46,005 nucleotides of DNA. It comes from Candidatus Nomurabacteria bacterium CG1_02_43_90. Its GTDB lineage: Bacteria; Patescibacteriota; Minisyncoccia; Phycocordibacterales; UBA1550. The DNA is taken from contig MNVN01000015.1 in NCBI GenBank assembly GCA_001871765.1, forward strand, positions 116,543 through 162,547, read 5' to 3'. Numbering within the stretch: the stretch's first letter is position 1; every line of letters begins with the position of its first letter. Under the pieces are notes generated by a model, which was not told the origin of the DNA, ran no database searches, and was given only the letters and a program-made list of their open reading frames with translations. The translations under genes were made by a program, and so were the position numbers. Positions 1,922-45,770 of this stretch are shown in pieces.

Positions 1922-2161
1922 ATGCAAATGACAATATTTTTAGGTCAGGGGCTTGTGTGGTGGACAGGGATGATTGGTGGTTTCTTTTTCTTGCTTCTTA
2001 TTATCACCGGGCTTGTTAAACAGTATAACTATAATATTTTTGTAAGGTGGCAAGTCCCCCTTACCCCGCTTCATCACTGGTTTGGATGGATTTCTCTCGG
2101 GTTCCTTTTTGTTCATTTCCTCCTCGCGCTCTTCAGTTCAATGTGGAGTGTATTCTTCTAA
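1922..2161 (+). CDS. Two-helix membrane protein with bis-His helix, cytochrome b / ferric-reductase-like fragment
   Basis: This is a 79-residue protein with two hydrophobic helices (about residues 12-32 and 50-72). The second helix carries H51, H52 and H65. The H51-x13-H65 spacing is the one used by haem b-binding helices of ferric reductase and NOX-like transmembrane domains, which normally have six helices and two such His pairs. Here one His-pair helix is left, so haem binding would require a dimer; this is inference. The start at 1922 was chosen because the promoter -10 box ends 7 nt before it; an in-frame ATG also exists at 1928. The next gene is a ferredoxin-reductase-like FAD/NAD(P)H protein, matching a split ferric-reductase arrangement. 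It could instead be a non-haem membrane anchor. Confidence 0.7.
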   Translation: MQMTIFLGQGLVWWTGMIGGFFFLLLIITGLVKQYNYNIFVRWQVPLTPLHHWFGWISLGFLFVHFLLALFSSMWSVFF

Positions 2162-2913: not shown

Positions 2914-3405
2914 ATGGATAATTCAAAAACTACTATGGAAAAAAATGAAATTTTAGTCGATCGAGGAATGGGACAAGTACGCAAATACGGAATCGCAGTA
3001 CTCCTTGCTCTTCTTGCGTTAAATGGCGTAGCTCTTGGTGCTCTACACCTAATAGAGTCCAATGACACCCGCAACGAGCTTATTAAATATGCCAAAACAA
3101 TCCCTGCTCCCGACGTAACCAAGGCAGAGCAGACCATACATCTTCCCGAGGATATTATTGCGTTACGCTCTGACAACATCGACCGCGCTGGTTTTTACGA
3201 GACATCCATTGGTGAACAAGACTATCTTGTTTATGGTGATGTTAATAAACACTACATGCTCATAAAGTCTGAGGCAACCATCCAAAAAGAGATTTTTAGT
3301 TTTGGAATGGCCCTAAGCGCACTCTATGTGGGCGAAGTCATTATCCTCCTTGGATGGTGGTTATTTGTCCGCACAAAAGTTCGTGAAGTATTCGAAATGA
3401 TTTAA
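2914..3405 (+). CDS. Two-helix membrane protein with an extracytoplasmic loop, unknown function
   Basis: A 163-residue protein with a cytosolic N-terminus, a helix at about residues 25-47, a polar region of about 85 residues, a second helix at about 135-153 and a short basic tail. The layout resembles the sensor part of a histidine kinase or chemoreceptor without the signalling domain, but no known domain is recognised. There is no cysteine, so it is not an iron-sulphur or c-type haem protein. It sits between the reductase and the first FMN-domain protein in a run of same-strand genes with short gaps, so a scaffold or membrane link in that redox system is plausible but unproven. An alternative start lies at 2935. 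Confidence 0.75.
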   Translation: MDNSKTTMEKNEILVDRGMGQVRKYGIAVLLALLALNGVALGALHLIESNDTRNELIKYAKTIPAPDVTKAEQTIHLPEDIIALRSDNIDRAGFYETSIGEQDYLVYGDVNKHYMLIKSEATIQKEIFSFGMALSALYVGEVIILLGWWLFVRTKVREVFEMI

Positions 3406-3416
3406 AAATTAGCACT

Positions 3417-3941
3417 ATGTCTTTATTTACAAAAAATCTAGAGAAATTCCTTATTTTCTTTTTCACTGGGGTTTCTGTCGTACTCATTGTCATGGGCGTT
3501 GCGCGTGCAAAAAAACCAACCTCTCTTGCTGCAGCCCCCGCACCTACTCCAACTCCCGCCCCACAGACAAGCACACTAGGAGCAACAACCATTACAGGGT
3601 CCGCCTACCAGACACCATGGGGAAGTGCTTCTGCTTCTATCACCGTAAAAGGTGGCCAAGTGGTTGCCGTAAGTATGCCTTCTGTACCCAACTCACCCCC
3701 TTCTATTTATGCAGAGCCATACCTTATTGATCAGGCACTGAAAGCTGGTTCTGCAAATATCCAAGGAGTCTCGGGGGCAACCTACACGAGCATCGCGTTC
3801 AAGTCTTCTCTTCAGAGCGCACTCGCACAAGCAACAACGCAAGGGCAGTCGGTCAGCCCAAGTACTAACACAGCCGTAGTCACCCCTACTGCAAAACCTA
3901 CTGTTCCCCAGCGTTATCGCGATGATGATGATGATGATTAG
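3417..3941 (+). CDS. Membrane-anchored single FMN-binding-domain protein (flavinylation target)
   Basis: A 174-residue protein: N-terminal helix (about 11-29), Ala/Pro/Thr-rich linker (34-58), one FMN_bind domain (about 60-140) and a C-terminal run of six aspartates. The domain carries SGAT at residues 119-122 within GVSGATYTS, the NqrC/RnfG-type signal in which the threonine (T122) receives FMN through a phosphoester bond from ApbE. It thus should hold one covalent FMN and carry electrons. ApbE is encoded two genes downstream. The N-terminal 14 residues resemble those of the next gene product, so both share an anchor type. Basic residues follow the helix (R30, K32, K33), leaving the membrane side uncertain. 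Confidence 0.88.
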   Translation: MSLFTKNLEKFLIFFFTGVSVVLIVMGVARAKKPTSLAAAPAPTPTPAPQTSTLGATTITGSAYQTPWGSASASITVKGGQVVAVSMPSVPNSPPSIYAEPYLIDQALKAGSANIQGVSGATYTSIAFKSSLQSALAQATTQGQSVSPSTNTAVVTPTAKPTVPQRYRDDDDDD

Positions 3942-4030: not shown

Positions 4031-5035
4031 ATGTCATCTTTTCAAAAAAACTTAGAGAAATTTTTTGTGTATTTTTTCGCCAGCGTTTCTATGCTTGTGG
4101 TTATTCTGGGTATTGGGCGAATAAAGCAACCGGGCACACTCGGGACTACTCCTGCACCAAGCGACAGTGGAGCAACGGGAGTAGCAACAACAGCAAAAGC
4201 TACCGCGACTATGGTTGCGGGTGCTCAAGTTGTCAATGCGAGCGGAAAAACGTTCCAAACTCCTTGGGGAAATCTCGCCACGACTATACAAGTTAAAGAT
4301 GGTAAAGTCGTTGCGGTTAATATCCCTACACTCCCCGATTCACCTCCTTCAGTATACGCAAAACAATATCTTATCGACCAAGCACTCCGAAGTGGGTCTT
4401 CAAATATTCAGGGTGTTTCGGGGGCAACAATCACCAGCAACGCGTTCAAGGCATCTCTTGAGAGTGCCCTCGCACAAGCAGCAACACAAGGTATTACCGT
4501 AACGGGTGGTCTTTCTTCAAATACGAGTACGGGTGCCAATACAACAACGCAAACGCCCCCACCAGCAGCACCAGCTCCTACGCCAAAAATTACTGCACCG
4601 ACGATAGCTAAAACAACATCAAATACAGCGAGCGCGCCAGCGAGTGTTTCGGGTACATTCACAGGATCTGCATATCAGACACCGTGGGGAAATGCCGTTG
4701 CTTCGGTAACCTTTACCAATGGCAAGATTACGAATGTAACTATGCCACAAGTTCCTAACTCTCCTCCTTCTCAACAAGCAGAGCCGTACCTTATACAACA
4801 AGCTATGGCAGCAGGGAGTGCAAATATTCAAGGAGTCTCAGGGGCAACCTACGCAAGTATCGCCTTCAAGTCATCCCTTGAAAGTGCTATTGCAAAAGCA
4901 AGCGCACAAGGCACAGTAGCCGCAAGTGTAACCAGTACTTCTGGGGCATCAGCAACAAAAACTACAACAGCACAGCCAACCGTTTCGCGAACATACAAGA
5001 CACATAGTGAAAAGAACGAGGATTTTGACGATTAA
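4031..5035 (+). CDS. Membrane-anchored protein with two FMN-binding domains (flavinylation target)
   Basis: A 334-residue protein with an N-terminal helix (about 11-29), a low-complexity linker, FMN_bind domain 1 (about 70-152), a second Ala/Pro/Thr linker (160-205), FMN_bind domain 2 (about 210-292) and an acidic tail. The SGAT flavinylation motifs are at 130-133 and 270-273, predicting FMN on T133 and T273. Domain 2 is closer to the single domain of the preceding gene (shared AEPYLI, AGSANIQGVSGATY and SIAFKSSL) than to domain 1, which suggests duplication and shuffling within the locus. Three flavin domains in a row could act as a wire. It is followed 3 nt later by apbE. The SGAT at 46-49 is in the linker and is probably chance. 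Confidence 0.88.
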   Translation: MSSFQKNLEKFFVYFFASVSMLVVILGIGRIKQPGTLGTTPAPSDSGATGVATTAKATATMVAGAQVVNASGKTFQTPWGNLATTIQVKDGKVVAVNIPTLPDSPPSVYAKQYLIDQALRSGSSNIQGVSGATITSNAFKASLESALAQAATQGITVTGGLSSNTSTGANTTTQTPPPAAPAPTPKITAPTIAKTTSNTASAPASVSGTFTGSAYQTPWGNAVASVTFTNGKITNVTMPQVPNSPPSQQAEPYLIQQAMAAGSANIQGVSGATYASIAFKSSLESAIAKASAQGTVAASVTSTSGASATKTTTAQPTVSRTYKTHSEKNEDFDD

Positions 5036-5038
5036 TTT

Positions 5039-5962
5039 ATGACTGAGCATCGCATATTTCATTCAATGGGGATTCCCGTCCATATCACTATGGTCGGGTT
5101 TTCTTCGTCGGAGGCTGACGCCGCTCTTGCACGCGCAGAAGATATTTTTACCGAATACGATCTTCGCTTTAGTCGTTTCAAGTCGGAGAGCGAACTCATG
5201 AGGCTAAATACAAGTAACGGTTCATGGCACAAAGTAAGTATCGAACTTTTTCAAGTTATCAAAAAATGCGTTGCACTTTCTGCAGAGACCGATGGCAGTT
5301 TCGATCCATCAGTAGGAGGTGTACTTGCTTCTTATGGATACGGATTGCCATTAAATTTTGAATTACCTGAGGTGCTCCCCACCTACCGAGACCTTGCCTT
5401 CAATGACCGCGAACTTTTGATACGCCTCGCACCAAAACAAATCCTTGAGCCTGCTTGTATTGTAAAAGGTATGGCTATTGATATGGCAGGAAAAGCTATT
5501 GTCGAAAAAATGGATACTTCTCGACAAGGGTTTATCATAAACGCAGGAGGTGATATTTTTACTCAGGGTTCATTTGAGGACGGAAAGCAGTGGAACGTTG
5601 CTATTCAAGACCCACGTAGCGCAGACGCGATTATAACGGCTGCGGGGATACAAAATGCAGGCATGGCGACCTCCGGGACCTATCAAACAGGAGGAGAACA
5701 CCATGGTAAAAAATGGCACCATTTAGTAAATATGCAGACAGCGGAATCAGCTCCTGGAATAGTCAGCGCGACCGTTATAGCCCGCACTTGTGAAGAAGCT
5801 GACACGGAAGCATCCCTCGTAATACTCCTCCCTCTTGAAAAAGCAGTCGCCAGACTTGAAGCGCGCCAGCTTCCCTATTTCATTATTTCTGAGAATGGCA
5901 CCGTCACAAAAAATAACACATTTGCGCAACTAGAAATACCTATCGCAACACTTGTTGCATAA
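5039..5962 (+). CDS. apbE: ApbE, FAD:protein FMN transferase
   Basis: A 307-residue ApbE-family protein. Visible family motifs are SRFKSESELMRLN, GSFDPSVGG, the KGMAIDMAGK segment, INAGGDIF and AGMATSGTYQ, together forming the FAD- and Mg-binding site. ApbE splits FAD and attaches FMN to a Ser/Thr of SGAT-type motifs; the two preceding genes contain three such sites, so substrate and enzyme are encoded together. Many ApbE proteins are exported or lipidated, but this one starts MTEHRIFHS with no signal peptide or lipobox, suggesting that it works in the cytosol before or without target export. The stop codon overlaps the following hairpin. Confidence 0.95.
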   Translation: MTEHRIFHSMGIPVHITMVGFSSSEADAALARAEDIFTEYDLRFSRFKSESELMRLNTSNGSWHKVSIELFQVIKKCVALSAETDGSFDPSVGGVLASYGYGLPLNFELPEVLPTYRDLAFNDRELLIRLAPKQILEPACIVKGMAIDMAGKAIVEKMDTSRQGFIINAGGDIFTQGSFEDGKQWNVAIQDPRSADAIITAAGIQNAGMATSGTYQTGGEHHGKKWHHLVNMQTAESAPGIVSATVIARTCEEADTEASLVILLPLEKAVARLEARQLPYFIISENGTVTKNNTFAQLEIPIATLVA

Positions 5963-40096: not shown

Positions 40097-40171
40097 TCCG
40101 CGGTAGCTCAGTGGTAGAGCAAGCGACTGTTAATCGCTTGGTCGTAGGTTCGATCCCTACCCGCGGAGCCA
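40097..40171 (+). tRNA. tRNA-Asn (anticodon GTT), with encoded CCA; integration site
   Basis: Acceptor TCCGCGG/CCGCGGA, D arm GCTC/GAGC, anticodon stem AGCGA/TCGCT around CTGTTAA (GTT reads AAC/AAT), T arm GTAGG TTCGATC CCTAC, G discriminator, CCA encoded (40169-40171). The opposite-strand recombinase gene ends inside its T arm and acceptor stem. Confidence 0.97.
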
Positions 40172-41671
40172 GTTAGGACTATCAGCTAGTTCTAGTACTA
40201 AATTAAACGGAGAAGCTATTGCAAAATATAGCTCTTTTCCGTTTACAGTCGGGTTCTGAAGTATGTAATTCAAAAATGCTCTTTTCTCAGCAGGTTCAGA
40301 ACTGTTTTCAAAAATGGTCTTTGCCCTGCGTGCCACTGAAATGACCGTAGCAACGGTTGTTTGGTAATCATAGTCCGCTTTTCTATGTTCAGAAAGTTCA
40401 ATTTCTAGCTCTTGCATCTTGTCCTGATACTCTTGATGCTTTTTGTCATAGATGTCCTTAGTAATACTCTGGTCTAGGTAAGCTTCAAGAAGACGATTAT
40501 CTTTTGATTTGTAATTTTCATAATCAGTCCTTATTCGGTTCATCTGTGCCTTATGGAATACAACTTCGGCTTCAGTGTTCTTTCGTAGCTCATCAACAAG
40601 ACCATTCTGTGTTTCCTCAGTGATGCTTTCAAATCGCTCCAAGACCTCATAAATGGGCTTCAGAAGCTCTAGTTCGTTCACATAGACCCTTTCACATATC
40701 TTCTTGGAATTAGTGCAAGAACCGATTACATATTCCTTACCGCTTGGCTTAATTTTATGCTCAAATGAGATGGCACAACCGCAGTTATGGCACTTCAAAA
40801 GCCCTTTGAATATAAAGTCCTTAGAATGTGCCTTAGAGGGCATTTTAGTGCGTTTTGAGCGTACTTCTTGGCACTTATCAAAGAGTTCTCTTGAAATAAG
40901 TCTTGGATATTTGTGAGCATAAGCACCGTACTTTTTTGATATAGCAATACCACAATAAAAACTATCCTTTAACATATTTTCTACACAGCTTTTGGATAGC
41001 TTAAAACCCTTGAGACTACGAAGTCCAAGTTTTGTCATTTCTATTCGTATGGTTTCAAGAGAGTGATTTCCAGTTGCATAAAGCTCAAACATCTTTGCAA
41101 CAAGATGACCTCGTTCGGGGTCAATGATTATATCCTTACGCAGTCTCTTTTCTACATCCAAAGCAACATTCAAATAACCTAACCGAACAGCTCCTGTCCA
41201 TTCGCCATTTCTTCGCTTCTGCTCAAATGCTCTTTTTACATTGTCGCCAATCGCATCAGAATAGTATTTAGCTAGACCCAAGCTCATACCAAACTGGAAC
41301 TTTTCTACGGCTGACATCTGGCTGTTTATTACCTGACCCTCTGACACAAAATGAAGCTCAATTTTGTCAGCTACAGCAAGTTCATATAGTCGTGCAACTC
41401 GTTTATCAAATACACTTCTTGAAAGACGGTCTACTTTATCAAAGCAGACAGCAATTTTTTCTTTCTTAATTATGTTCTCAACAAACTCAAGTAACTTATC
41501 AAACTCGTCTCGTTTTTCTTTGTAAGCACTCTCGTCAAAGCTATACGACTTTACGACATCAAAAGATTTCTTGTTGCAGTAACTTCTAATACGCTCAATT
41601 TGAGCAGGTAAAGAGTTACCAGCTTCTTTTTGTTCTTCAGTTGATACTCTTGAGACATTTATTGCTTTCAT
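40157..41671 (-). CDS. Large serine recombinase (integrase)
   Basis: A 504-residue protein. The N-terminal resolvase domain holds the catalytic serine in NVSRVSTEEQ (S9), the later arginines in DKVDRLSRSVFDKR, and QFGMSLGLAKYYSD. Then a recombinase domain (WTGAVRLGYLNV), a zinc ribbon (LKCHNCGCAISFE with two later Cys) and a long coiled coil (RTDYENYKSKDNRLLEAYLD). It inserts and excises circular DNA at att sites. The last codons (NWLRG and the stop) are within tRNA-Asn, so insertion fused the gene to the target. It follows the restriction gene by 4 nt. Confidence 0.93.
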   Translation of the reverse strand: MKAINVSRVSTEEQKEAGNSLPAQIERIRSYCNKKSFDVVKSYSFDESAYKEKRDEFDKLLEFVENIIKKEKIAVCFDKVDRLSRSVFDKRVARLYELAVADKIELHFVSEGQVINSQMSAVEKFQFGMSLGLAKYYSDAIGDNVKRAFEQKRRNGEWTGAVRLGYLNVALDVEKRLRKDIIIDPERGHLVAKMFELYATGNHSLETIRIEMTKLGLRSLKGFKLSKSCVENMLKDSFYCGIAISKKYGAYAHKYPRLISRELFDKCQEVRSKRTKMPSKAHSKDFIFKGLLKCHNCGCAISFEHKIKPSGKEYVIGSCTNSKKICERVYVNELELLKPIYEVLERFESITEETQNGLVDELRKNTEAEVVFHKAQMNRIRTDYENYKSKDNRLLEAYLDQSITKDIYDKKHQEYQDKMQELEIELSEHRKADYDYQTTVATVISVARRAKTIFENSSEPAEKRAFLNYILQNPTVNGKELYFAIASPFNLVLELADSPNWLRG

Positions 41672-41675
41672 AAAA

Positions 41676-42758
41676 TTATTCTTCGTCGGTTACATACTTA
41701 ACAACATCTACTTTATCAAGTGCCTTTCTAAGAAATTGTGCCATTTCCGCATCTTTCATTTTAAGAATTGGATGTTCATAGCCAACATCCTTTTTTAATA
41801 ATTCAGCAATAGTTCTTGGCCAGTAAGCTAAACTCATTTGAATAATTGACCCTCCAACTGCTTTAGCTAATTCTTCAATAGAACTTTTTTCTCCTATTCT
41901 ATCTACAACAATATAGGTACCCATATAATGTGTCTGTCTTCCAAAAGTCATTTCTCGTTCAAATCTTGTAACTTTATCTAATGATATTTCTGGATTGCCT
42001 CTACCAATAAAACCAATATCAAACCTAATCCCTTGTCCTGGTTTTATGATTATTGTAGCGTCACTCTCTCTTTTTTCAGTTGAACTAAGCCAGAAAACTT
42101 TTTCCAGCTTGTCAGGTGGGTTATTATGGTCAATAAGTGTAAAACCAAGAATTTCTAATAGCGAACCGAGCACTAATCTTTCAAACATTTTCCCATAAGT
42201 TGATTTTTCTGAACCTCTAATAGTTAGCGTTTGTGCACCAATAGCCAAAAAAACTTTCATAATTAATGTCCAGCTAACTTGCGTATCTTTACCTTCAAAC
42301 TTAAAGTTTCCCTCTAGTGCTCCACAATTCTTTTCAAAATCAGTAACAGCATCTATTAGTGTCTCATCAAGTTTTTTCCTGTAATTATCAAGCTCATCAG
42401 GGTTGTCTCGTAGTATATTTTGAACGGCCTTATCTGTTAGACCCAGCAACCATTCAAGTATCCATTTCTCGTCCTTCTTTTTAGTAACCTTAAGTTCTTC
42501 AACTGCTTTTTCAGAAAGGTTTTGCAAGAAATCCTTATCTTGGTTACAACCTCTAAGAAACATAGCAAGTAATGCACCGTTAGATATTGCTAATCTTCTT
42601 CGTGTAATAAACTCAGTAGAATTTCTAACATTTTCACCGCTCAAAACAGAAAACACAGCTTCTCTTACGGCTTCGTTACCAATTTTTTTTATTACTTCTG
42701 GTCCTTTACTTACGAGAAGTTCTTTTTCTTTTTTAGGATAATTACTTACTATTTTCAT
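41676..42758 (-). CDS. Probable type II restriction endonuclease (tentatively CfrBI-like)
   Basis: A 360-residue cytosolic protein. Helical N-terminal half, then a possible nuclease core: STYGKMFERLVLGSLLEILG, RESDATIIIKPGQGIRFDIG and GRGNPEISLDKVTRFERE, with acidic and lysine residues in a PD-(D/E)XK-like order. It overlaps the methyltransferase by 4 nt (ATGA), the classical coupling of a restriction-modification pair. The CfrBI-like family is suggested from memory of family style only; the site is unknown. The main support is the methyltransferase partner. Confidence 0.65.
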   Translation of the reverse strand: MKIVSNYPKKEKELLVSKGPEVIKKIGNEAVREAVFSVLSGENVRNSTEFITRRRLAISNGALLAMFLRGCNQDKDFLQNLSEKAVEELKVTKKKDEKWILEWLLGLTDKAVQNILRDNPDELDNYRKKLDETLIDAVTDFEKNCGALEGNFKFEGKDTQVSWTLIMKVFLAIGAQTLTIRGSEKSTYGKMFERLVLGSLLEILGFTLIDHNNPPDKLEKVFWLSSTEKRESDATIIIKPGQGIRFDIGFIGRGNPEISLDKVTRFEREMTFGRQTHYMGTYIVVDRIGEKSSIEELAKAVGGSIIQMSLAYWPRTIAELLKKDVGYEHPILKMKDAEMAQFLRKALDKVDVVKYVTDEE

Positions 42759-43954
42759 AAAAGTTTTTTATTAACTGATTTAATTGGTGGACAGTTAATG
42801 CAAACTATATTTTCTGCTTCATTTGCTAATAACTTTTCCATTCTTTGTCTAATAATATTCACATAGCCCTTATCATTATCCAATAAGACAAAGCGTCTAC
42901 CTGTATTGATAGATGCCTCTCCAACTGTTCCAAGTCCTGCGAAAGGGTCCATTACAACATCACCTTTGAACGAATAGTAATTTATAACCTTCTCAGCTAA
43001 TTTTAATGGAAAAATTGCTGGGTGGTCCTTAGAATGACTAGGTGATATCTTCCAAATATTTGTTACATCGTACCCATCAGGAATTTTTGACTCCCTTACT
43101 AGTTTTTGTGAGGGATGGTTTCTAATAAACCAATCAATCAACTTATCACTTTTTTTTCTATAGACTAATACATATTCAGTAACTGGTACTGGCTTATACT
43201 GAAGAGGGTTTCTATCTGCCGAGAACCTTCTTCCTCTGCCTGTTGCCCAACCAGCCCCTTCAGGTTTCTGCCATATAATATCATCAACAAACTCAAATCC
43301 TTCCTCAATAAATAGACGATGAAAATCAAAAGGGACAGCCAGTCTCTTGGATGCTTTACTTCTATTTTCTCGTCTTATCAAAATAGGTGATATATTAAGT
43401 ACGAAAAATCTTCCTTCTACCAATACTCTTTCACAAGCACGGATAATTTTTCTCATTTTATTAAGATAATCTTCATAGTCCACATATTCTGAATACTCAG
43501 GCCTTGCGTTATAGTATGGCGGAGAGGTAAATATTAACTCTACAGAGTTTTTGGATAATTCAGAGAGTAATTTTTCACTATCTCCTTGTGCTATTGTGTT
43601 ACGCATTTGAGATTGAATGTAAGTATCTCTTTTAGTCTTTATTTTTTGCTCAGAAGTATCTCTTTTAAGTAATCTCTGTTCAAGAAATTCTTTTTTTGTA
43701 CTTCTTTTTTCATCAACTAACGATGTCTTGGCATCTATAACAATTTCTCCAATTCTGGATTTATCAGATTTATTTATTAGAGCTATTCTCCATATATGAC
43801 TTCTGTCATCTACCTCGGGTAGCCCGAAAGTAATTGCCTTATCTAGTTCATATTCTTTCATTAAACTTAAGGCGATTTCACGAGCAGAAATAGCATCTTT
43901 AATTAAATATTTCCGTCTGTCTGCAACTGTAATTTTTGTTTTCTCTTTTTTCAT
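42755..43954 (-). CDS. DNA methyltransferase, beta class (N4-cytosine or N6-adenine)
   Basis: A 399-residue protein. The catalytic motif IV TSPPY (143-147) comes before motif I MDPFAGLGTVGEA (336 onward), the permuted beta order. SPPY favours N4-cytosine; N6-adenine is possible. A target-recognition region lies between them (GAGWATGRGRRFSADRNP). The first 110 residues are an extra domain of unknown function. It modifies the host DNA to protect it from the endonuclease encoded directly after it. It begins 4 nt after the HTH gene. Confidence 0.92.
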   Translation of the reverse strand: MKKEKTKITVADRRKYLIKDAISAREIALSLMKEYELDKAITFGLPEVDDRSHIWRIALINKSDKSRIGEIVIDAKTSLVDEKRSTKKEFLEQRLLKRDTSEQKIKTKRDTYIQSQMRNTIAQGDSEKLLSELSKNSVELIFTSPPYYNARPEYSEYVDYEDYLNKMRKIIRACERVLVEGRFFVLNISPILIRRENRSKASKRLAVPFDFHRLFIEEGFEFVDDIIWQKPEGAGWATGRGRRFSADRNPLQYKPVPVTEYVLVYRKKSDKLIDWFIRNHPSQKLVRESKIPDGYDVTNIWKISPSHSKDHPAIFPLKLAEKVINYYSFKGDVVMDPFAGLGTVGEASINTGRRFVLLDNDKGYVNIIRQRMEKLLANEAENIVCINCPPIKSVNKKLL

Positions 43955-43958
43955 ATAT

Positions 43959-44144
43959 TTATTTCGTACTCACTTTTTTGAGAAAAGCTTGAAACTCATC
44001 CTTATCAATCCGATACTCACGCCCGATTTTGTATGCTTTAATTTTCTTAGCATTTATATAACGGTAAATTGTCATTATATTTACCTGCAACGCCCCTGCT
44101 AATTCTTCGGCTCTGTAAAACTCTTTTTCTTTAGTCATAGTCAT
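43959..44144 (-). CDS. Excisionase-family helix-turn-helix protein
   Basis: A 61-residue winged-HTH protein. FYRAEELAGALQVNIMTIYR, YINAKKIKAYKIGREYRI and a short final helix match the excisionase/MerR-like fold that binds DNA at integrase att sites or promoters. It may direct excision with the serine recombinase or act as a controller of the restriction-modification genes just downstream. An in-frame ATG at 44138 is an alternative start. Its promoter is at 44161-44189. Confidence 0.85.
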   Translation of the reverse strand: MTMTKEKEFYRAEELAGALQVNIMTIYRYINAKKIKAYKIGREYRIDKDEFQAFLKKVSTK

Positions 44145-44160
44145 AGTTTTTTACCTTATA

Positions 44161-44189
44161 ATTATACTTTACTCCACTTTACATAGCAA
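44161..44189 (-). promoter_or_regulatory. Promoter of the HTH-methyltransferase-endonuclease-recombinase run
   Basis: On the minus strand TTGCTA (44184-44189), 17-nt spacer, consensus TATAAT (44161-44166), then TAAGG as a possible ribosome binding site 9 nt before the ATG at 44144. Confidence 0.7.
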
Positions 44190-44193
44190 ACTG

Positions 44194-44493
44194 CTAGCAC
44201 ATCGTTCCAGATAGTAGTTCGGCAAAAGCTCGTTTCTTTTCGGGTAGTGTCCACCTGGGATTGTTTTCACAGCTCAATTTGTAGCAACAAGCAATACTTT
44301 CCCAAATAGCAAGCTCCCTCTCAGGGTTCAAATCCCTTTGAAAATTACTAATTGTTTCTTCAATGGAGCTAGTTTCAACTTCCCTGAGTATCACTTTGAA
44401 CTTAATCACTCGGTCAATAAAGCCCTCTGGCAGAACTTCGTATCTAATTCCGCTTGGCTTTATCTCGGATATATCAATGAGTTTCTTTTTCAT
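44194..44493 (-). CDS. Hypothetical protein (99 aa) of the element
   Basis: Not recognised. A soluble protein with YEVLPEGFIDRVIKFKVIL, EETISNFQRDLNPERELAIW and several cysteines (IACCYKLSCEN), which could bind metal but have no known spacing. Its start overlaps the replication gene by 20 nt, so it is probably translated with it. Confidence 0.65.
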   Translation of the reverse strand: MKKKLIDISEIKPSGIRYEVLPEGFIDRVIKFKVILREVETSSIEETISNFQRDLNPERELAIWESIACCYKLSCENNPRWTLPEKKRAFAELLSGTMC

Positions 44494-45613
44494 ATTTTTT
44501 AGTTTTATAAGGTTTGTAATCTGCTAATTTTTTGTCTAATTGAGTAACCCAATCCCTAAGCTTGTTCTTGGTAATCAGCTCACTTGCTTGTTGCATATCC
44601 TTTGCTATGCGATACCAAGTTCTATCGTGGGAACGCTTTGAGATAATTGTTCTGAGTTGTCGCATTCCGTTTTCATCTCTTGCGAGTTGGAACAAACCAA
44701 GAAGATAAATTGCTTGTTTTGGCTTAAGCTTTTTATCAGCCATAAACAATATTCGGAGTATGTCTTTTACGCTTATAGCGATTGAAAACAGTCCAAGATT
44801 TCGCTCCTTGATAAGCTTCTGCCAATAGCTATTAACAACTTTCTTACTTAGCTCAGTGCTGAACACTTCTTTGAAAGTTGGGTTTTTCGCATATCCCAAT
44901 TCTTCAATTACCTTGTTCATTTTCTGCTTGTGGTTCAGTCGTATCTCAAACCGTATAACCTCATTAAGTTCTGGGTCTTTATTCAACTCTGCAAACAAGC
45001 TTCTCTGATAAGGATTTTGGTCTTTGTCTATTGCTCGCTTTTTGTCCTTACCCAAGTCAGCAATTTTGTCGTAAATAACTAGCTGATGAGCTGTGGTATG
45101 AGCATATAAACTCTGACCGTCATTCATAAAGCGTGTTTTTGCGAAATCAAAACTCTTTCGTAGGTTCACTTTGTTCATCTCAGAAATCAGATGAGTAACC
45201 GTATATCCGTCTTCTACCTGAATGTTTTTTGAGAAGTGAACAGAGCTTACTGATGCCTTTTCAAGGATTGATTTTTTTGCAACTATTCCCATTGTTTTTA
45301 ATCGGTCTTGAAGCATTTCAATGACCTGAGAGAAATCTTTATCTTCAAGTTCATCTAGGTTGTTGAGGTAAAGCAATTTAGGTACGGAAAACTCAATGCG
45401 AACATTGGCATCCTGACCATAGTTTTTACGCCTATAACCTGTCAGACGAGGAAAATACAGACCACTATCCAAATCTCTCTTTGAGGGATTTTTTACAAAC
45501 TTGTCATACTGGTCTGTCTTGGAATGCAAGTTCCAAGTGGGCACACCGTAAGATGATAAATCTAGGACTGTGAGCTTGTCTTTCGGTATCAATAGGCACA
45601 CAGTATCAATCAT
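44474..45613 (-). CDS. Phage/plasmid replication protein, gene II/X-like (rolling-circle initiator)
   Basis: A 379-residue protein. Start MIDTVCLLIP resembles filamentous phage gene II proteins. Other matching features are the HQLVIYDKIADLGKDKK strand (Tyr and Lys like the gene II nicking region) and VIRFEIRLNHKQKMNKVIEE (R-F-E-x-R as in gene II). Such proteins nick one strand at the origin for rolling-circle replication. The frame extends upstream to 45709, but that part overlaps a better small gene in another frame, so 45613 was chosen. Members of this family have also been described on plasmids. Confidence 0.75.
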   Translation of the reverse strand: MIDTVCLLIPKDKLTVLDLSSYGVPTWNLHSKTDQYDKFVKNPSKRDLDSGLYFPRLTGYRRKNYGQDANVRIEFSVPKLLYLNNLDELEDKDFSQVIEMLQDRLKTMGIVAKKSILEKASVSSVHFSKNIQVEDGYTVTHLISEMNKVNLRKSFDFAKTRFMNDGQSLYAHTTAHQLVIYDKIADLGKDKKRAIDKDQNPYQRSLFAELNKDPELNEVIRFEIRLNHKQKMNKVIEELGYAKNPTFKEVFSTELSKKVVNSYWQKLIKERNLGLFSIAISVKDILRILFMADKKLKPKQAIYLLGLFQLARDENGMRQLRTIISKRSHDRTWYRIAKDMQQASELITKNKLRDWVTQLDKKLADYKPYKTKKYEKETH

Positions 45614-45770
45614 TTTTTTCTTTCTTAATCTGATAAAGAGCAGGATTTTGTTTCTTATCTTCTTTGATAAGCCACGCAAAAGCACCGACCAATTTGTTCT
45701 TGTCTTCAAGCGATAAATCGTTTATGTTGAAGCCAACTTTCGGCTCTTGTGGTTTAGTAGTACCCTGCAT
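45606..45770 (-). CDS. Small hypothetical protein (54 aa) upstream of the replication gene
   Basis: Not recognised. The frame encodes a soluble, charged 54-residue protein (FNINDLSLEDKNKLVGAFAW, LIKEDKKQNPALYQIKKEK). Its stop overlaps the replication gene start by 8 nt (ATGATTGA), as expected for coupled translation. The hairpin at 45771-45798 directly abuts its ATG. Confidence 0.6.
   Translation of the reverse strand: MQGTTKPQEPKVGFNINDLSLEDKNKLVGAFAWLIKEDKKQNPALYQIKKEKND

Follow-up and report, generated by a model that had tools for sequence, protein, structure and literature searches.

A two-helix protein at the head of a flavinylation operon

The window analysed here is a 46,005-nucleotide stretch of contig MNVN01000015.1 from Candidatus Nomurabacteria bacterium CG1_02_43_90, an organism with an ultra-small genome. 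An open reading frame on its forward strand (1922-2161, +) encodes a 79-residue membrane protein (MQMTIFLGQGLVWWTGMIGGFFFLLLIITGLVKQYNYNIFVRWQVPLTPLHHWFGWISLGFLFVHFLLALFSSMWSVFF), which we describe as a putative half-cytochrome b, predicted to work as a homodimer. AlphaFold2, supplied with an alignment of 12 homologues, models this unit as a hairpin of two helices, residues 2-42 and 47-78 (mean pLDDT 84), the second of which carries H51 and H65, with 13 residues between them, and an additional histidine, H52 (H51 and H52 codons at 2072-2077, +; H65 codon at 2114-2116, +). The reading frame and the model thus agree with the original prediction of a two-helix protein of this length with a single histidine pair on one helix. 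The segment between the two membrane spans carries two basic residues, K33 and R42. Basic loops of membrane proteins face the cytosol, according to the positive-inside rule, and on this basis the loop would be cytosolic, with H51 near the inner side of the membrane and H65 near the outer side.

The unit heads an operon of six genes, all on the same strand. It is followed by an FNR-type FAD/NAD(P)H reductase of 240 residues (2174-2896, +; NAD_binding_1 E 8.6e-18), which is the separate reductase that had been proposed to adjoin it; this protein carries RxYS and GTGVAPF-type motifs, has no Fe-S domain and is closest to the NqrF, BenC and MmoC reductases. Next lies TM163 (2914-3405, +), an operon-conserved protein consisting of a small extracytoplasmic beta domain between two transmembrane helices, with no Pfam match and no conserved histidine; a Foldseek search with its model (pLDDT 76) returned nothing significant. 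The TM163 extracytoplasmic domain is four-stranded, and the protein is kept only in operons of the Yonathbacteria type. The remaining genes encode an FMN_bind protein with an N-terminal transmembrane helix and one SGAT flavinylation motif (3417-3941, +; PF04205 27.2 bits, cutoff 22), a second protein in which both the FMN_bind domain and the SGAT motif occur twice (4031-5035, +; PF04205 51.5 bits in two stretches) and ApbE, an FAD:protein FMN transferase (5039-5962, +; PF02424 E 1.4e-48). An SGAT motif can be read in each of the three FMN_bind domains, and the locus combines apbE, an FMN_bind substrate with an S/T-G-A-T/S motif and a transmembrane domain. Judged by these encoded features, the operon is predicted to specify an extracytosolic flavinylation electron-transfer system. 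The original prediction had missed the ApbE/FMN_bind operon, which is what defines the system.

All nine relatives that we retrieved share this gene order, the L011 contig ending early; the number of FMN_bind domains varies. Across the genus, this number ranges from one to several per operon (4031-5035 in the window; L014:6130-7545; L012:6419-7507), and such multi-flavinylated expansions could lengthen electron transfer. Scans of the sequence for sigma-70 promoters and terminators scored barely above shuffled controls. At the far end of the window, a low-GC tail (40157-45709; GC 0.34-0.37) with an apparent large serine recombinase, a DNA methylase-like reading frame and further unplaced reading frames looks like an integrated mobile element.

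Conservation and distribution of the unit

The 79-residue protein is found in 10 of 16 genomes of the genus, at 66-79% identity and always in the same position beside the reductase gene; FNR and ApbE accompany it in all ten, and the other six lack all three. Public records of the carriers in the genus are Candidatus Yonathbacteria and Nomurabacteria MAGs. Two lineages outside the genus, BP6.bin83 (L048) and a Magasanikbacteria MAG (L049), encode the unit in the same gene order at 61-64% identity. The contig of the latter also has apparent genes for ribosomal proteins L10 and L7/L12. The comparison that had been suggested, with short membrane proteins beside reductase genes of other CPR genomes, thus places the unit next to FNR in both the genus and these two lineages. 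No match came from viral contigs, for which we used profiles of both unit and tandem, or from plasmids, for which we used the tandem protein described below. Further matches in G064 (L027), G022 (L028), G475 (L114), G558 (L115), L029 and Niabella (L052) were discarded because they were unrelated proteins, reading frames or sequence beyond the unit.

Differences between the window copy and its homologues fall mostly at third codon positions (e.g. 14/6/39), with dN of 0.12-0.31 and saturated dS, confirming that the reading frame is a real gene under purifying selection. Least probable by far among the explanations we weighed is that the unit is a functionless remnant of a full ferric-reductase-FNR gene, left by decay or gene fission: the phylum often encodes full-length PF01794 proteins (in 51 of 187 genomes), one of them in an FMN_bind/ApbE cluster (L158), but the reading frame is intact in all ten operon-bearing members of the genus with a strong third-position bias, 61-64% identity is retained in other lineages and no TM4-TM6 sequence is left between the unit and FNR, and the reading as non-functional debris is already refuted.

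Across 22 two-helix units, 12 of them single and 10 derived from tandem proteins, H51 and H65 are invariant down to about 30% identity, as the haem-binding idea had required. Of the remaining columns, only G16, N36 and L68 never vary, while K33, Q44 and G55 are present in 21 of the 22. H52 is replaced by K in L116 (G740) and by Y, I, P or V in tandem units, which points to H51-x13-H65 as the functional pair, to which H52 does not belong; H51 would be the inner-haem ligand and H65 the outer-haem ligand.

Relationship to DUF4405 and ferric-reductase domains

All Pfam matches of the window protein lie below curated cutoffs: DUF4405 (PF14358) at 21.9 bits (E 2.6e-4; cutoff 26.7), Ni_hydr_CYTB (E 4e-3) and Ferric_reduct (PF01794; E 0.03, 14.7 bits, cutoff 28), the last of which also matches nine of 12 relatives below its cutoff. 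The relatives raise these scores, with 25.9 bits for DUF4405 in the single-unit protein L116 and 33.4 bits, above the cutoff, in the tandem protein L082; one tandem relative exceeds the cutoffs of both DUF4405 and Cytochrom_B561 (PF03188). Foldseek found nothing better than E 3 with the two-helix model, as expected of a hairpin, and the unit profile had only chance matches among sequences of solved structures (best E 0.82).

The single-unit profile aligns with CPR ferric-reductase domains in hhalign at 88% probability (P 2.8e-6), compared with P 0.46 for the reversed control; reversed controls as a whole gave 0.2-0.5, NqrB-like domains 0.03 and the best of 91 unrelated membrane reading frames 0.0067. 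The unit also aligns with small CPR proteins of the DUF4405 type (92.5%, P 5e-7), a set of three sequences of which two are above the cutoff. The first of these alignments shows homology to the ferric-reductase TM2-TM3 hairpin that is remote but real. The unit's two-helix module with a conserved H-x13-H is a trait of DUF4405, which is characterised by four central histidines in one chain or in a homodimer; the 79-residue chain contributes one pair. The unit lies in a zone shared by DUF4405, ferric reductases and cytochrome b561, marginally nearest to DUF4405. Of the original proposal of a reduced, split ferric reductase, the remote homology stands, while membership of that family does not: the PF01794 score is half its cutoff, and two helices with one pair take the place of six transmembrane helices with histidine pairs on TM3 and TM5.

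Tandem forms and other small relatives

A phylum search with the FNR profile turned up, in one family-level lineage, a 151-residue protein with four transmembrane helices whose gene overlaps the start of FNR. This protein, from a clade of distantly related CPR genomes, comprises two copies of the 79-residue unit, head to tail, directly upstream of the reductase. Both halves match the 79-residue profile (domain E 1.8e-14 and 7.3e-17), the single and tandem profiles align at 98.8% (hhalign, P 1e-16), and the tandem relatives hold four histidines, as two H-x13-H pairs, in one chain. Against a CPR ferric-reductase domain, the first pair falls on the TM3 pair and the second on the TM5 pair, an alignment that is weak when taken alone (P 2e-4, 45.9% probability). 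Because the two pairs of the tandem protein align with those of ferric reductases, it is plausible that two units assemble into a single four-helix core with two haems, in which case the 79-residue protein would work as a homodimer. The tandem form gives independent support for a homodimeric cytochrome half.

One genome, G577, has both forms: a tandem protein and a single unit of 85 residues, at 42-46% identity, which lies in a cluster ordered FMN_bind-ApbE-unit-FNR. In G740, an 86-residue unit follows FMN_bind and ApbE with no FNR adjacent. Tandem units (L082:5224-5679, -; L083:5248-5703, -; L084:4763-5218, +; L104; L105) lie beside FNR with no FMN_bind or ApbE nearby, and the fused form may feed another acceptor. 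Other tiny two-helix CPR proteins of the DUF4405 type have 99 (L223:1477-1776), 82 (L224:1474-1722) and 66 (L230:1480-1680) residues, and single-module DUF4405 proteins seem to be recurrent in CPR. The last of these, an H-x13-H protein encoded beside a cupredoxin-like gene in another CPR genome, means that the window protein is not the smallest of its kind, as had been claimed.

Membrane conduits of CPR flavinylation loci

FMN_bind is present in 31 of 315 genomes of the phylum, and we read 29 regions with FMN_bind, all from outside the Yonathbacteria genus and G577, for the protein that fills the position of membrane conduit. In 26 of them it is of the NqrB/RnfD-FNR type: in 25, the neighbour of FMN_bind(-ApbE) is a protein of 490-532 residues with 6-9 transmembrane helices and a C-terminal FNR, and in L163 the same architecture is split in two. 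For part of these 26 the assignment relies on size, number of helices and position: nine were scanned, of which seven exceeded the PF03116 cutoff, L176 fell just under it and L171 showed the FNR domain only. The L158 region contains a full Ferric_reduct-FNR protein in its FMN_bind/ApbE cluster, and the L167 and L177 regions have no conduit protein nearby. In Yonathbacteria and the G577 lineage, the two-helix unit occupies this slot. The computation shows that membrane conduits are interchangeable around the FNR and FMN_bind parts. A scan of G000 for PF03116 and PF01794 gave no match, ruling out that the window holds an ordinary CPR ferric-reductase or NqrB operon.

Two further observations concern reductases elsewhere. 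In G006, a genus member that is 88% complete, the two-helix operon is accompanied by an NqrB-FNR/ApbE cluster (C58:10480-12694), which is either a second system or contamination. Many CPR genomes encode proteins of about 940-960 residues (e.g. L098:12823-15690, L097:3593-6421) that appear to be ADP-forming acyl-CoA synthetases (CoA-binding and ATP-grasp domains) with a C-terminal FNR-type NAD(P)H/FAD reductase domain, an odd addition to an enzyme of substrate-level phosphorylation.

A putative homodimeric di-haem conduit

Several known systems resemble the window operon in part. NQR/RNF-like clusters, found mainly in Actinobacteria and CPR according to the paper defining flavinylation systems (PMC8238504), are the common CPR form and share FNR, FMN_bind and ApbE with unidirectional transfer from NAD(P)H to extracytosolic flavin, but their conduit is NqrB/RnfD (PF03116) fused to FNR, where the window has a two-helix unit. 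Ferric-reductase/MsrQ-like proteins with FNR (PF01794; NOX, FRE) share an H-x13-H helix, which aligns with their TM3, and a cytosolic FNR donor, and MsrQ-like systems are likewise associated with FMN_bind and ApbE (PMC8238504); unlike them, the window protein has one hairpin in place of six transmembrane helices, one histidine pair per chain and an unfused reductase. Cytochrome b561 (PF01292, PF03188) has a similar H-x13-H hairpin (a sub-threshold match), whereas its domains are longer multi-helix single chains with other partners. Closest is DUF4405/FezC (PF14358; Huang et al. 2024, PMC11334425), which likewise has a two-helix histidine-pair module associated with ApbE and flavinylated proteins, and in FezC the haem sites are predicted to be completed by homodimerisation, as we propose for the window unit. 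Haem b binding has been demonstrated experimentally for a DUF4405 protein and FezC, the latter modelled as a homodimer (PMC11334425). Published flavinylation-associated DUF4405 proteins have six transmembrane helices and four histidines per chain, whereas the window unit, encoded by a CPR genome, is one module whose FNR partner is a protein of its own. Haem-b DUF4405 cytochromes are thus already known; what is new is a minimal single-module variant in a CPR flavinylation operon.

We hypothesize that the 79-residue protein is a minimal cytochrome-b half-module that pairs into a homodimeric di-haem wire from NAD(P)H to extracytosolic flavin, a reading to which we give a probability of roughly two in three and for which we infer the dimer, the haem, the direction of flow and the acceptor. 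Two copies would pair in parallel with their second helices face to face, binding two bis-His b haems, one between H51 and H51' on the cytoplasmic side and one between H65 and H65' on the outer side. The resulting core, with four helices and two histidine pairs, would correspond to TM2-TM5 of ferric reductases and NOX and to DUF4405 cytochromes. Electrons from NAD(P)H would pass through the FAD of the separate FNR to the inner haem, and from the outer haem to FMN covalently attached by ApbE at SGAT motifs in the membrane-anchored FMN_bind proteins, whose flavins may reduce an extracellular acceptor such as ferric iron or another oxidant.

The partner in the membrane is the point at which the strongest alternative differs, according to which the unit binds haem only in a hetero-complex or holds a single haem, for example with non-His ligands from the helices of TM163 or FMN_bind, in the manner of YedZ and STEAP. 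Short ferric-reductase proteins with two or three histidines do exist, YedZ and STEAP keeping the surface-proximal haem only (PMC3591440), and TM163, with its two transmembrane helices, is a constant member of the Yonathbacteria-type operon. However, our search for conserved membrane histidines in TM163 and the FMN_bind proteins found none, which makes a second copy of the unit the simplest partner; the single-unit loci of G577 and G740 have no TM163 counterpart among their reading frames, the tandem form holds all four histidines in one chain, and H51 and H65 are both invariant. We therefore consider this alternative unlikely, and a homodimer would be the natural way of completing a bis-His di-haem core.

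A second alternative, less likely still, is that the unit is a mere membrane anchor or docking subunit for FNR, with structural or metal-binding histidines, while electrons cross by a diffusible flavin or quinone. The protein is tiny, and NqrB/RnfD, the conduit of some CPR flavinylation systems, contains no haem. An anchor fits poorly with an invariant set that adds only three residues to the two histidines, with an H-x13-H spacing equal to the haem-ligand spacing of ferric-reductase domains and DUF4405, and with the preservation of both pairs in the tandem version; moreover, no other product of the operon could move electrons across the membrane. The anchor reading also draws on the absence of ferrochelatase, which is the main point against haem in general: the enzyme was found in none of the 16 genus genomes by a search that was positive in nine of 14 control genomes, and haem would therefore have to be imported or scavenged. 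This objection is weakened by the 51 of 187 phylum genomes with ferric-reductase domains, which also require haem. Also counted against the homodimeric di-haem wire are the sub-cutoff Pfam scores, the lack of a fold match, the unexplained TM163, the G740 unit without an adjacent FNR and the weakness of the alignment between tandem and ferric-reductase domain. On balance, the sequence evidence indicates that the 79-residue protein is probably a minimal DUF4405/FRD-like half-cytochrome that forms homodimers and belongs to a CPR flavinylation system.

Implications for CPR electron transfer

If the homodimeric wire is correct, a haem path from NAD(P)H to the outside would need a membrane protein of only about 79 residues, and bacteria in which no ferrochelatase is seen would scavenge their haem. 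Around a constant set of FNR and FMN_bind parts, flavinylation operons would swap unrelated conduits (NqrB/RnfD, ferric reductase and the two-helix cytochrome). More speculatively, and in our estimation doubtful, the unit might be a living half-module from which DUF4405 and ferric reductase/NOX arose by tandem duplication, with CPR displaying both stages, homodimeric single and fused tandem, in working operons and a di-haem wire built from a 79-residue homodimer. The coexistence of single and tandem forms makes a two-fold internal origin of the ferric-reductase/NOX and DUF4405 domains directly testable.
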